The notes beneath the pieces are model-generated. The model was given only the letters and a program-made list of their open reading frames with translations. It made no database searches and was not told the origin of the DNA. This document shows, piece after piece, positions 32,777-37,409 of a DNA stretch of 64,000 nucleotides. A program made the position numbers and the translations under genes. The DNA is from Rhodobium gokarnense (GTDB lineage: Bacteria > Pseudomonadota > Alphaproteobacteria > Rhizobiales > Rhodobiaceae). The number at the start of each line of letters is the position of its first letter. Position 1 is the first letter of the stretch. Location of the stretch: assembly GCF_025961475.1 (NCBI RefSeq), contig NZ_JAOQNS010000006.1, positions 186,001 to 250,000 on the forward strand, read 5' to 3'.

Positions 32777-32967
32777 GGTGGCCCGTCCTTTCTGAACGCC
32801 CCTTCTTACGGCCCAACGGCCCCGGCGAAAAGCCCTTGCTGCAATGCGACACCGAAGCGCAGCCGCTCGGCCATGCGGTTTGCGGTCGCGGTGCCCTTCA
32901 TTTGCCTTGAGGGCGCGACATGCTAAGCGATCTGTCCGGAATCGTCGTTCAAAGGAATTGCACCGAC

Positions 32968-34350
32968 ATGAATGTTCTGCTGATCGGCAGCGGCGGCCGC
33001 GAACATGCGCTGGCCGTGACAATTGCCCGCTCGCCGATGTGCGACACGCTTTTTGCCGCGCCGGGAAATGCCGGCATGGCCGACGTCGCCGAATGCGTGG
33101 CGTTGAATGTGGACGACCACGACGCCGTCATCGCTTTTTGCCGCGACAAGGAGATCGGCCTCGTCGTCGTCGGACCCGAAGCCCCGCTCGTCGCCGGCCT
33201 CGTCGATGACCTCGATGCCGCCGGCATCAAGGCCTTCGGGCCGACCAAAGAGGCCGCCCGGCTGGAAGGCTCCAAGGCCTTCACCAAGGAGGTCTGCGAC
33301 CGCGCCCGCATCCCGACCGCCCGCTACCGCCGCTACGACGATCCGTCGGCGGCCAAGCTCTACCTTTCGGTGATCGGCACGCCGATCGTCGTCAAGGCCG
33401 ACGGGCTCGCCGCCGGCAAGGGCGTGGTGGTGGCCGAAACTTCGGCCGAGGCGGTGGCCGCCGTCGACGCCTGCTTCGAGGGCGGCATGGAGGGCGGCGT
33501 CGTCATCGAGGAATGCATGGTCGGCGAGGAGGCGAGCTTCTTTGCGCTGACGGACGGCAAGACCGTGGTGCCGCTGGCGACCGCACAGGACCACAAGCGC
33601 GTCGGCGACGGCGACACGGGGCCGAACACCGGCGGCATGGGCGCCTATTCGCCGGCGCCGGCGATGACCCCGGATCTCGTCGCCCGCACCATGCGCGAGA
33701 TCATCGAGCCGACGGTGAAGGCGCTGGCAGAAAAGGGCATCACCTATCGCGGCGTCCTCTATGCCGGGCTGATGCTGACAAAGGACGGTCCCAAGCTGAT
33801 CGAATACAACGTCCGCTTCGGCGATCCGGAATGCCAGGTGCTGATGGCGCGGCTGAACGATGATCTGCTGCCGCTGCTCTTTGCCTGCGCCGAGGGCACG
33901 CTGGAGGCGACCGAGCTTTCCTGGCGCCCGGAGACGGCGCTCACCGTGGTCATGGCCTCCAAGGGCTATCCGGGGTCTTACGAAAAGCGCACCGAGATCG
34001 CCAATGTCGAGGCCGCCGCGGCGATGGCGGACGTCACCGTCACCCATGCCGGCACGGCGATGGACGGCGACCGGCTGCTGGCCACCGGCGGGCGTGTCCT
34101 CAATGTCACGGCGCTCGGAAAAACCGTGAAGGCGGCCCAGCAGCGCGCCTATCAGGCGGTCGATGCCATCGACTGGCCGAACGGCTTCTGCCGCCGCGAT
34201 ATCGGCTGGCAGGCGATCGCCCGCGAGGAGGCCGAAAGCGGCCCGGAAACGCCGCAGGAAACGCAGGAAGAAACACCTGCCGGGGCCTCGGCGGCCCCTG
34301 TCGGCGACGGCGACTCCAGACCCGAGGGAGACGGCAAGACGACCGCCTGA
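32968..34350 (+). CDS. purD: Phosphoribosylamine-glycine ligase
   Basis: 460 aa from the ATG at 32968 with AAAGGAATTG upstream. PurD makes glycinamide ribonucleotide, step two of purine synthesis. The opening [17 protein letters not shown]-grasp segments [17 protein letters not shown] and [13 protein letters not shown], and the metal-binding [10 protein letters not shown] are all present. The catalytic core ends near residue 424; about 36 further residues are an acidic Glu/Pro/Gly tail ([13 protein letters not shown]) not typical of the family. A weak hairpin and T run overlap the stop. Confidence 0.95.
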
Positions 34351-34462: not shown

Positions 34463-35371
34463 ATGACCGGCAGCGACGATCTATTTCCGGGCTTTGCGAC
34501 GGAGCGCCGCGCCGCCAACGGCGTGGAGTTCCACTGCCGGATCGGCGGCGACGGCCCGCCGCTCGTCCTCCTCCACGGCTATCCCCAGTGCCACGTGATG
34601 TGGCATCGCCTGGCCCCGGCGCTCAGCGAGCATTTCACGCTGGTGATTCCGGATTTGCGCGGCTACGGCGACAGCGATGCCCCGCGCGGCGGAGGCGACC
34701 ACGCGGCCTATTCCAAGCGCACCATGGCGAGCGACGTCGTCGCCCTGATGGCCGGCCTCGGCCACGAGCGCTTCCGGATCGCCGGTCACGACCGCGGTGC
34801 CCGCGTCGCCTACCGGCTCGCCTTCGACCAGCCCGAACGCCTCGAGCGCGTCGCCGTCCTCGACATCCTGCCGACCTATGAGTACTGGCAGCGCATGAAC
34901 ATGGCCTACGGGCTGTCGATGTACCACTGGCTGTTCCTCGCCCAGCCGGAGCCCCTGCCGGAAATGCTGATTTCCGGCGAACCGGAGCGTTATCTCGACC
35001 ACACGATCGCAAGCTGGACCAAGGCTAGGGACCTTTCCGCCTTCGACCCGCGGGCGCTCGACCGTTATCGCCGTCTCTTCACCGATCCGGCCCGCGTCCA
35101 TGCGGCCTGCGAGGACTACCGGGCCGGCGCCGGCATCGACATGGAGCTGGACACCGCCGACGTCGAGGCCGGGCGCCGGATCGGGGTACCGCTCTGTGCC
35201 ATCTGGGGCGGCGGCGGCCTCGCGCCCGCCGGACCCTCGCCGCTCGAAGTCTGGCGCCGCTGGGCCGAGGACGTCGACGGAACCGCCGTCGATAGCGGCC
35301 ATTTCGTCGCCGAGGAGGCGCCGGAAGAGACGCTTGCCGCGCTGCTGCCCTTCCTGAAAGGGGAGTGCTGA
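34463..35371 (+). CDS. Fluoroacetate dehalogenase-type alpha/beta hydrolase
   Basis: 302 aa from an ATG. The protein matches haloacid-type alpha/beta hydrolases of the fluoroacetate dehalogenase group: LVLLHGYPQCHVMWH, then AGHDRGARVAYRLAFD and DSGHFVAEE. Counting residues gives Asp110 nucleophile, Arg111, Arg114, Asp134, His155, Trp156, Trp185, Tyr219 and His280. As I recall, these are the nucleophile, carboxylate clamp, charge relay, fluoride pocket and base of the Rhodopseudomonas palustris enzyme RPA1163, at identical numbers. One change is Tyr40 where I recall Phe40. The family splits C-F or C-Cl bonds of short 2-haloacids via an ester intermediate. It is 3 bp upstream of a phosphotransferase gene. 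Activity is inferred, not shown. Confidence 0.82.
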   Translation: MTGSDDLFPGFATERRAANGVEFHCRIGGDGPPLVLLHGYPQCHVMWHRLAPALSEHFTLVIPDLRGYGDSDAPRGGGDHAAYSKRTMASDVVALMAGLGHERFRIAGHDRGARVAYRLAFDQPERLERVAVLDILPTYEYWQRMNMAYGLSMYHWLFLAQPEPLPEMLISGEPERYLDHTIASWTKARDLSAFDPRALDRYRRLFTDPARVHAACEDYRAGAGIDMELDTADVEAGRRIGVPLCAIWGGGGLAPAGPSPLEVWRRWAEDVDGTAVDSGHFVAEEAPEETLAALLPFLKGEC

Positions 35372-35374
35372 GCG

Positions 35375-36460
35375 GTGCCCGACCGGCTCGATCGCCAACA
35401 GGCCTTTTCCGGCACAAGGCCCGTCGACGAGGATCTGGCGATCGACGTCGCCCGGTTGGAGCGCTGGCTGGAAACCGCCGTTGCCGGCTTCAGGGGCCCG
35501 GTCGAACTGCAGCAGTTCCGGGGCGGCCAGTCGAACCCGACCTTCCTTCTGAAGACGCCGGAAAAGAACTACGTGCTGCGCCGCAAGCCGCCCGGCGACC
35601 TGTTGCCGTCGGCCCATGCCGTCGACCGGGAATACCGGGTGATTTCGGCGCTCGGCAGCGTCGGTTTTCCGGTGGCGACCGCCCGCGTCCTCTGCCGCGA
35701 CGAGAGCGTCATCGGCTCCATGTTCTACCTCATGGACGAGGTCCGCGGCCGCATCTTCTGGGAGCCGGCGATGCCCGGCTCCGACCCGGTGGAACGGGCG
35801 GCGGTCTACGACACCATGAACCGGACGCTGGCCGAACTGCACGCCCTCGATCCCGACGCCCTCGGCCTTGGCGATTTCGGCCACAAGGGCGGCTATGTCG
35901 CCCGCCAGATCGCCCGCTGGTCCCAGCAGTACCGCCTGTCGACGACCGAGGAGATCCCGGAGATGGACCGACTGGTTGACTGGCTGCCGGACAACCTGCC
36001 GCCGGAAAATCCGACCCGCCTCGTCCATGGCGACTATCGCCTCGACAACCTCATCGTCTCCGCCGCCGGCCCGAACATCGAGGCCGTGCTCGACTGGGAA
36101 CTGGCGACCCTCGGCGATCCCGTCGCCGACGTCGCCTACCACGCCATGCAATGGGTGATGCCGGCCTCGGACACCGGCGCCGGCGTCGGCACCCTTCAAG
36201 GCGAAAACCTCGAAGCCCTCGGAATCCCGGCGCTGGATACCTATCTGGCGATCTATGAGGAGCGGACCGGCCTCGGCGTGCGCGCCGATCTGGACTTTCA
36301 CTTCGCCTACAACTTCTTCCGGCTGGCGGCGATCTTCCAGGGCATCATCGGCCGCGTCCGTGACGGCACCGCCGCCAACCCGGAGGCGGCGCGCATGGCC
36401 GCACAGGTCCGCCCGCTGGCCGAGGCCGCCTGGCACTATGCCGAGCGGGCAGGGGCCTGA
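35375..36460 (+). CDS. Aminoglycoside-phosphotransferase-fold kinase (ACAD10/11-like)
   Basis: 361 aa from a GTG 3 bp after the dehalogenase-type stop. Kinase-like fold: RGGQSNPTFLL resembles the glycine-rich loop, YVLRRKPPG carries the ATP-binding Lys, LVHGDYRLDNLIV is the catalytic loop, and AVLDWELATLGDP the metal-binding Asp. This subgroup includes the N-terminal domain of ACAD10/11, linked to hydroxy-acyl-CoA breakdown. The substrate here is unknown. Tight coupling to the hydrolase suggests shared regulation, perhaps in hydroxy-acid metabolism; that is speculation. Confidence 0.83.
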   Translation: MPDRLDRQQAFSGTRPVDEDLAIDVARLERWLETAVAGFRGPVELQQFRGGQSNPTFLLKTPEKNYVLRRKPPGDLLPSAHAVDREYRVISALGSVGFPVATARVLCRDESVIGSMFYLMDEVRGRIFWEPAMPGSDPVERAAVYDTMNRTLAELHALDPDALGLGDFGHKGGYVARQIARWSQQYRLSTTEEIPEMDRLVDWLPDNLPPENPTRLVHGDYRLDNLIVSAAGPNIEAVLDWELATLGDPVADVAYHAMQWVMPASDTGAGVGTLQGENLEALGIPALDTYLAIYEERTGLGVRADLDFHFAYNFFRLAAIFQGIIGRVRDGTAANPEAARMAAQVRPLAEAAWHYAERAGA

Positions 36461-36518
36461 CAGGCAGGGCCTGACGGTCCCGCGTGTTGGGGTCCGGTCT
36501 GACGAAAGGAAAAAAACA

Positions 36519-37409
36519 ATGACGACCCCGAAAGTGGGGCTTGCCCTTGGCGGCGGCGGTGCGAGAGGCATGGCCCATATCGCCGTCCTTGAGGCCTTCG
36601 ACGACCTCGGCATCCGCCCGACGGCGATCTCCGGCGCTTCCATCGGCGCGATGATCGGGGCGGGCTATGCCAGCGGCATGACCGGCGCGGAAATTCGCGA
36701 ATTCGCCACCGCCACCTTCGCCAACCGCGCCGACGTCCTCGGCCGGCTCTGGAAGGTGCGCCCCAAGGGCCTGTCGGAGCTGTTCGGCAATCGCGGCATC
36801 GCCCGTTTCGATGCCGAGCGGGTGACGCAGATGTTCCTGCCAGACACCATCGCGCTGACTTTTGAGGAGTTGAAGACCCCGCTCACCATCGTCGCCGCCG
36901 ATTTCTACGGCTGGTGCGAGGCGGATATCCGGTCCGGTCCGTTGCTGCCGGCGGTTGCCGCCTCCATCGCCATTCCGGTCATCTTCAAGCCGGTGGTGCT
37001 GGACGGACGGATCATGGTCGACGGCGGCGTCATCAATCCGCTGCCCTTCGACACCCTGCCGGAAGACGTCGACATCGTCGTTGCCGTCGACGTCGTCGGC
37101 GGCCCGGAGCCCGGCGACCATGGGGGCCTGCCGAACGCCACGGAATCGATCTTCGGCGCCACCCAACTGCTGATGCACTCGATCCTGCGCGAGAAACTGA
37201 AGCTGCGCCGGCCGGATATCCTCGTGCGCCCCGACATCAACGCCTTCCGGGTGCTCGATTTTTTAAAGACCGCGGAGATCATGCGGGCGACGGCACCGCT
37301 GCGCGAGACGCTGAAGCACGACTTGTCCCGCGCCATCGATGCCTGGCAGCATGGTGCAACGCTGCAAAAGACCCTCGATCCGGCCGAAGAAGAACGGACG
37401 GAGGCGTGA
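36519..37409 (+). CDS. Patatin-like phospholipase
   Basis: 296 aa from the ATG at 36519 with GAAAGGA upstream. The patatin Ser-Asp dyad is intact: the oxyanion loop LALGGGGARGMAHIAVL, GASIGAM with Ser41, and VDGGVINP with Asp168. RssA-like in length; no signal peptide, so probably cytoplasmic or membrane-peripheral. Bacterial patatins hydrolyse phospholipids or acyl esters; the true substrate is unknown. It lies 58 bp after the phosphotransferase and ends 6 bp from the convergent antiporter gene. Confidence 0.9.
   Translation: MTTPKVGLALGGGGARGMAHIAVLEAFDDLGIRPTAISGASIGAMIGAGYASGMTGAEIREFATATFANRADVLGRLWKVRPKGLSELFGNRGIARFDAERVTQMFLPDTIALTFEELKTPLTIVAADFYGWCEADIRSGPLLPAVAASIAIPVIFKPVVLDGRIMVDGGVINPLPFDTLPEDVDIVVAVDVVGGPEPGDHGGLPNATESIFGATQLLMHSILREKLKLRRPDILVRPDINAFRVLDFLKTAEIMRATAPLRETLKHDLSRAIDAWQHGATLQKTLDPAEEERTEA

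Follow-up and report, generated by a model that had tools for sequence, protein, structure and literature searches.

Does a hydrolase gene whose product carries the active-site residues of a fluoroacetate dehalogenase encode such an enzyme, and what does its chromosomal setting suggest about its role? The question is raised by a gene in the 64,000-nucleotide stretch of Rhodobium gokarnense DNA analyzed here (the window), for which an earlier note had counted nine residues at the numbering of the Rhodopseudomonas palustris enzyme RPA1163. The gene and its neighbors are as follows.

32962 to 34350, plus strand: purD, phosphoribosylglycinamide synthetase of purine synthesis (Pfam GARS_N/A/C; conserved adjacency).
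34463 to 35371, plus strand: probable fluoroacetate dehalogenase ortholog, an alpha/beta hydrolase of 302 aa (translation, phmmer, alignment, AlphaFold2 model).
35375 to 36460, plus strand: APH-fold kinase resembling the ACAD11 kinase domain (Pfam APH; PDB 3dxp, ACAD11 8v3v).
36489 to 37409, plus strand: patatin-like phospholipase (Pfam Patatin; start placed by comparison with the R. orientis match).

Translation of 34463–35371 yields 302 residues followed by a stop, the length given in the earlier note. A longer protein beginning at the upstream start of the open reading frame, 34163, which lies inside purD, was rejected, as the R. orientis match begins at residue 1 and most homologs also align from residue 1–7 onward. 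In a phmmer search of the sequences of all solved structures, RPA1163 (3r3u) was the top match with an E value of 1.3e-119, far beyond chance. The alignment is ungapped, pairing residues 5–298 with RPA1163 chain positions 7–300 at a constant chain-index offset of 2, and the identity is 57.8% across the aligned part of the family alignment. When the PDB entries' own residue numbers are used, residues 4..300 of the AlphaFold2 model fall on residues 4..300 of RPA1163; thus the two proteins have identical residue numbering. Both have D, R, R, D, H, W, W, Y, and H at positions 110, 111, 114, 134, 155, 156, 185, 219, and 280, so that the register proposed in the earlier note is exact in the translation and in the sequence and structural alignments, with the Trp/His/Tyr pocket in register. 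The catalytic triad, Asp110-His280-Asp134, and the fluoride pocket, His155-Trp156-Tyr219, are complete in the window protein, and Trp185 is present, as are Arg111 and Arg114, which we take to be the carboxylate clamp.

The roles that the earlier note had assigned, those of nucleophile, relay Asp, base, and fluoride pocket, agree with the accessible part of PMC11022551, where the RPA1163 triad is Asp110-His280-Asp134 and the leaving fluoride is stabilized by His155, Trp156, and Tyr219. Trp156 and Trp185 are residues of the RPA1163 active-site pocket, and a contribution of RPA1163 Lys152 to an outer substrate site has been proposed (PMC11465415, accessible part). There are differences between the two proteins. 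Residue 40 is Tyr in the window protein and Phe in RPA1163, a replacement already noticed from the sequence and seen in both the phmmer and the family alignments; residue 152 is Ser instead of Lys and residue 181 is Thr instead of Lys. No NCBIfam model reached its cut-off for the protein. Rhodobium orientis DSM 11290 carries the same gene at 90% identity, and the dN/dS values against R. orientis match the expectation for purifying selection: 0.15 for the dehalogenase, 0.14 for the kinase gene, and, over the part that could be aligned, 0.19 for purD.

The AlphaFold2 monomer model (19 sequences) has a mean pLDDT of 92.9 and a pTM of 0.92. Among the 50 Foldseek matches listed, 38 name RPA1163 in their titles, while the other 12, at 57–58% identity, carry method-type titles or plain "fluoroacetate dehalogenase." The top 37 VIA-align matches have Z scores of 47.1–48.6 at 1.0–1.7 Å and 56–58% identity, followed by NOS0089 (46.4), a Delftia enzyme (45.2), 4nvr (45.2), DAR3835 (45.0), FA1 (44.0–44.9), and a P. 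aeruginosa "putative epoxide hydrolase" (43.2–43.4). The window protein is thus predicted to share the RPA1163 fold over its full length, with a Z score of about 48 and the pocket in register. Being of a single chain, the model bears on the fold but carries no information on ligand binding or on the half-of-sites reactivity of the homodimer that marks enzymes of the RPA1163 type.

How informative is the residue set itself? In the family alignment, all 62 homologs carry D110, R111, R114, D134, W156, Y219, and H280; this set of homologs includes H-1 and was obtained after removal of duplicates, four stop-containing rows (L067, L027, L031, and L049), and one short row (L045). H155 is kept in 59 of the 62 and W185 in 48, and all nine residues are present in 48. 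Because seven of the nine never vary in the family, finding the same set mostly amounts to showing that the protein belongs to it; the discriminating residues are His155 and Trp185, and the window protein keeps both. The frames of the four stop-containing loci each hold an internal stop and the L045 match is cut short, which may reflect sequencing errors or pseudogenes. A second tally covered 110 host-order loci (100 sampled loci and 10 further loci of the RPA1163-type family). All nine residues are present in 91 of these and the seven core residues, Trp156 and Tyr219 among them, in 110/110, with H155 found in 109 and W185 in 91 (L089 and L114 are gapped at 185 in this tally, L089 having Lys there in the 62-homolog alignment).

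RPA1163, FA1, H-1, NOS0089, and DAR3835, all reported defluorinases (PMC11022551, accessible part), each contain the nine residues. The identities of the last four to the window protein are 40.8% (FA1), 40.3% (H-1), 47.0% (NOS0089), and 43.5% (DAR3835), so the reported defluorinases with the full set span a wider divergence than that between the window protein and RPA1163. Tyr40 is also found in NOS0089 and DAR3835; as both are characterized defluorinases, Tyr40 as a disabling change was ruled out. Residue 152 is Ala in FA1 and NOS0089 and Ser in H-1 and DAR3835, with Lys in none of them. Among the 110 loci, 15 from the family of RPA1163 itself have Gln185 (L070, L100–L112, and L173), 14 of them from a Bradyrhizobium-like genus (g35) and L173 from another genus, which indicates that the residue set can change among close relatives. 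Such natural W185 variants may have an altered substrate range. A sixteenth Gln185, in L087, belongs to another sub-family.

In the window, purD lies directly upstream of the dehalogenase gene, with 112 bp between the end of purD and the dehalogenase start codon. No terminator and no sigma-70 promoter were found in this gap, and the fold after purD was no better than that of shuffled sequences. The GTG start of the kinase gene is located 3 bp past the dehalogenase stop, and the two genes are possibly cotranscribed. The nearest solved relatives of the kinase are 3dxp and mouse-type ACAD11 (8v3v). ACAD10/11 phosphorylate 4-hydroxyacyl-CoAs (PMC11342911, accessible part), and LvaA is a bacterial kinase homolog of ACAD10/11 (PMC12440821, accessible part). 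The seven window open reading frames scanned with Pfam included no acyl-CoA dehydrogenase and no recognized fluoride-handling gene. The patatin-like protein scored 91.2 bits against NCBIfam RssA, under the cut-off of 272; its gene also neighbors the dehalogenase in other loci.

The purD linkage extends far beyond the window. In 100 sampled loci, picked from the best matches and not at random (99 genomes, one used twice), a same-strand purD is found no more than 400 bp upstream in 68, representing 23 of 31 families, and the count rises to 77 when the limit is set at 2 kb; less than 1.2 kb of sequence was available upstream of the match in 21 of the 100. In 26 of these loci an ACAD11-like kinase gene comes right after the dehalogenase, and in 23 the dehalogenase sits between purD and the kinase. 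The 10 further loci, likewise picked and not random, come from the 122 genomes, among 198 of the RPA1163-type family, that match RPA1163 at E ≤ 1e-100. By their listed coordinates all ten have purD ahead of the dehalogenase on the same strand, eight of them within 400 bp; all ten were placed in the purD group of the 110-locus tally, though in L173 and L176 purD is more than 400 bp away. One of the ten, L167, carries a near copy of RPA1163 (98% identity at the protein level), and the matched part of purD ends 178 bp upstream of it. Genes for a pseudouridine synthase (67% identity between the window and L167) and a Cons_hypoth95 protein (53%), presumably RsmD-like, also lie near the purD–dehalogenase pair at both loci; in L167 they are downstream of it and in the window ahead of purD, in each case within 4 kb. 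The earlier note had called carbon–fluorine bond cleavage rare, but the gene family is not: 195 of 397 sampled host-order genomes match RPA1163 at E ≤ 1e-60, a count that takes in other sub-families and rests on scoring up to six candidates in each genome. A literature search that covered few subscription papers gave a single paper mentioning both fluoroacetate dehalogenase and purD, an NMR review judging by its title (PMC7084655), and none on fluoroacetate dehalogenase and Rhodobium.

In a quick tree of 84 rows, without bootstrap and midpoint-rooted for drawing, the window protein and RPA1163 fall in one 54-row group (SH-aLRT 99) that consists of host-order loci and RPA1163 and holds every row scored as purD-adjacent. 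Outside it are the archaeal rows, FA1, H-1, NOS0089, DAR3835, and another seven host-order loci. A closer 11-row grouping of the window protein with RPA1163 has a support of only 84. The three archaeal relatives (L029, L030, and L038; 49–53% identity, all nine residues kept) form a cluster of their own apart from the order-restricted group, which hints at gene transfer between bacteria and archaea. The dehalogenase gene thus appears to be an old resident of host-order chromosomes; recent mobile gain, as for dehH1 on pUO1, is rejected by the shared gene order and the order-restricted group. Taken with the purD adjacency, the purD upstream in L167, and the shared pseudouridine synthase and Cons_hypoth95 genes, the 54-row group also makes the gene a probable syntenic ortholog of RPA1163. 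Conservation of purD beside the gene points to a chromosomal role of long standing and not to a haloacid-degradation island.

Collectively, the full-length similarity, the exact pocket register, and the predicted fold make it very probable that the gene encodes a fluoroacetate dehalogenase, in the sense of its in vitro enzyme identity, as the earlier note had proposed; the best solved relatives are the RPA1163 structures. Hydrolysis of fluoroacetate and/or chloroacetate is its likely in vitro activity. Here we infer the catalysis, substrate, and quaternary structure of the window protein, with the mechanism carried over from RPA1163. Arg111 and Arg114 would hold the carboxylate of fluoroacetate or chloroacetate while Asp110 would carry out an SN2 attack on the alpha carbon, and the leaving fluoride would be held by His155, Trp156, and Tyr219. 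A water molecule activated by His280 with Asp134 would then hydrolyze the glycolyl-Asp ester and release glycolate. In the cell, the enzyme would scavenge small 2-haloacids, the glycolate passing to glycolate oxidase; this haloacid-scavenging step is the most likely cellular role and also our weakest inference. Elsewhere in the genome, a glcD-like gene lies beyond the window on the same contig (523 bits, short of the cut-off of 567.9), and there is a type II haloacid dehalogenase (L092, G000:C5:348384-348962; 231 bits against an NCBIfam cut-off of 125.4). A crcB (fluoride exporter) gene in the genome also fits the identity, but it is the only one and lies on another contig, unlike on pUO1, where crcB is close to the H-1 gene. 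Also counting against the identity are Ser152 and Thr181, each in place of Lys (FA1, H-1, NOS0089, and DAR3835 likewise lack Lys152), the absence of any NCBIfam model at its cut-off, the Gln185 seen in the family of RPA1163 itself, and a negative search of the genome for a fluoride riboswitch, in which 150 of 1060 first-look candidates were scored.

The neighborhood data also lend weight to another reading, in which the protein is a dehalogenase-family enzyme whose substrate in the cell would be a core-metabolic compound other than fluoroacetate (some short 2-substituted acid or ester), with defluorination as a side activity of a long-standing chromosomal enzyme. An order-restricted group with an SH-aLRT of 99, purD within 400 bp in 68/100 loci and 23/31 families, an adjoining ACAD11-kinase-like gene, seven scanned open reading frames that include no recognized fluoride-handling gene, and family matches in 195/397 genomes would all suit such a role. 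However, the fluoride pocket is kept nearly everywhere (His155 in 109, Trp156 in 110, and Tyr219 in 110 of 110 loci), which would be odd if halide release had never mattered, and a neighborhood alone is no proof of a functional link, as a stable position beside purD may be inherited without meaning. We know of no alternative substrate for this dehalogenase family. We consider this reading possible but short of probable; it is compatible with the in vitro identity, and its likelihood is not exclusive of that identity.

A chloroacetate or haloacetate dehalogenase that defluorinates poorly is an unlikely alternative to the fluoroacetate dehalogenase identity, though the differences from RPA1163 at residues 152 (S for K), 181 (T for K), and 40 (Y for F) leave some room for it and chloroacetate is often a further substrate of fluoroacetate dehalogenases (PMC11022551, accessible part). 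According to the same source, FA1 Trp150 is required for defluorination but not for dechlorination, and NOS0089 and DAR3835 defluorinate fluoroacetate despite having Tyr40 and no Lys152. FA1 Trp150 aligns with Trp156, which is present in the window protein. An epoxide hydrolase or other alpha/beta hydrolase is highly improbable and was rejected: although the fold is the same and the P. aeruginosa "probable epoxide hydrolase" entries 4b9a and 4bat match the whole chain at 45% identity, the best phmmer similarity is to RPA1163 (E 1.3e-119, against 1.4e-84 at best for the P. aeruginosa entries) and not to entries labeled as epoxide hydrolases, three of those P. aeruginosa entries were by their titles solved with bound MFA, which we take to be monofluoroacetate, all other entries so labeled are at 3e-40 or weaker, and RPA1163 structures, not epoxide hydrolases lacking the His-Trp pair, top the lists.

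The fluoroacetate dehalogenase family is already known and the window protein is an ordinary member of it; what is new is the purD-linked distribution across the host order. The window protein adds one well-supported member to a family of interest for the degradation of fluorinated acids, and its Tyr40/Ser152/Thr181 combination is a natural variant available for comparison with RPA1163. The purD neighborhood separates old chromosomal dehalogenases, including the near-identical RPA1163 counterpart, from mobile catabolic ones such as H-1 of pUO1. We tentatively suggest that the purD-linked dehalogenase may be an ancient gene of the order with an unrecognized role, of which the C–F cleavage by RPA1163 would be one face, either as protection, a standing defense against environmental or endogenous haloacetates, or as a side reaction of core metabolism. 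The distribution thereby raises the everyday role of such enzymes as a question that can be tested by gene deletion.

Comparison with known systems places the window protein closest to RPA1163 (R. palustris CGA009, PDB 3R3U and others), with which it shares about 58% ungapped identity, the nine residues, and a Z score of about 48, and whose 98% identical counterpart in L167 also has purD directly upstream; it departs from RPA1163 in Tyr40 (Phe), Ser152 (Lys), and Thr181 (Lys). The loci differ as well, as an opposite-strand deaminase gene follows the dehalogenase in L167, whereas the kinase and then the patatin gene follow it in the window. FAc-DEX FA1 (1Y37) has the same nine residues and fold (Z 44–45) but only 40.8% identity. 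H-1 (pUO1 dehH1) likewise has the nine residues, at 40.3% identity, but its gene is carried on plasmid pUO1 in a stretch of transposase genes, with crcB and a LysR regulator close by. NOS0089/Alr0039 (3QYJ) and DAR3835 (8SDC), reported to defluorinate fluoroacetate and difluoroacetate (PMC11022551, accessible part), share the nine residues and Tyr40, yet stand at 47.0% and 43.5% identity and outside the order-restricted group. In contrast, Salmonella 4NVR ("putative acyltransferase"), though it has the same fold (Z 45.2) and 43% identity, contains Trp155 for His, Gln185 for Trp, and His40, and thus has neither of the discriminating residues that the window protein keeps.
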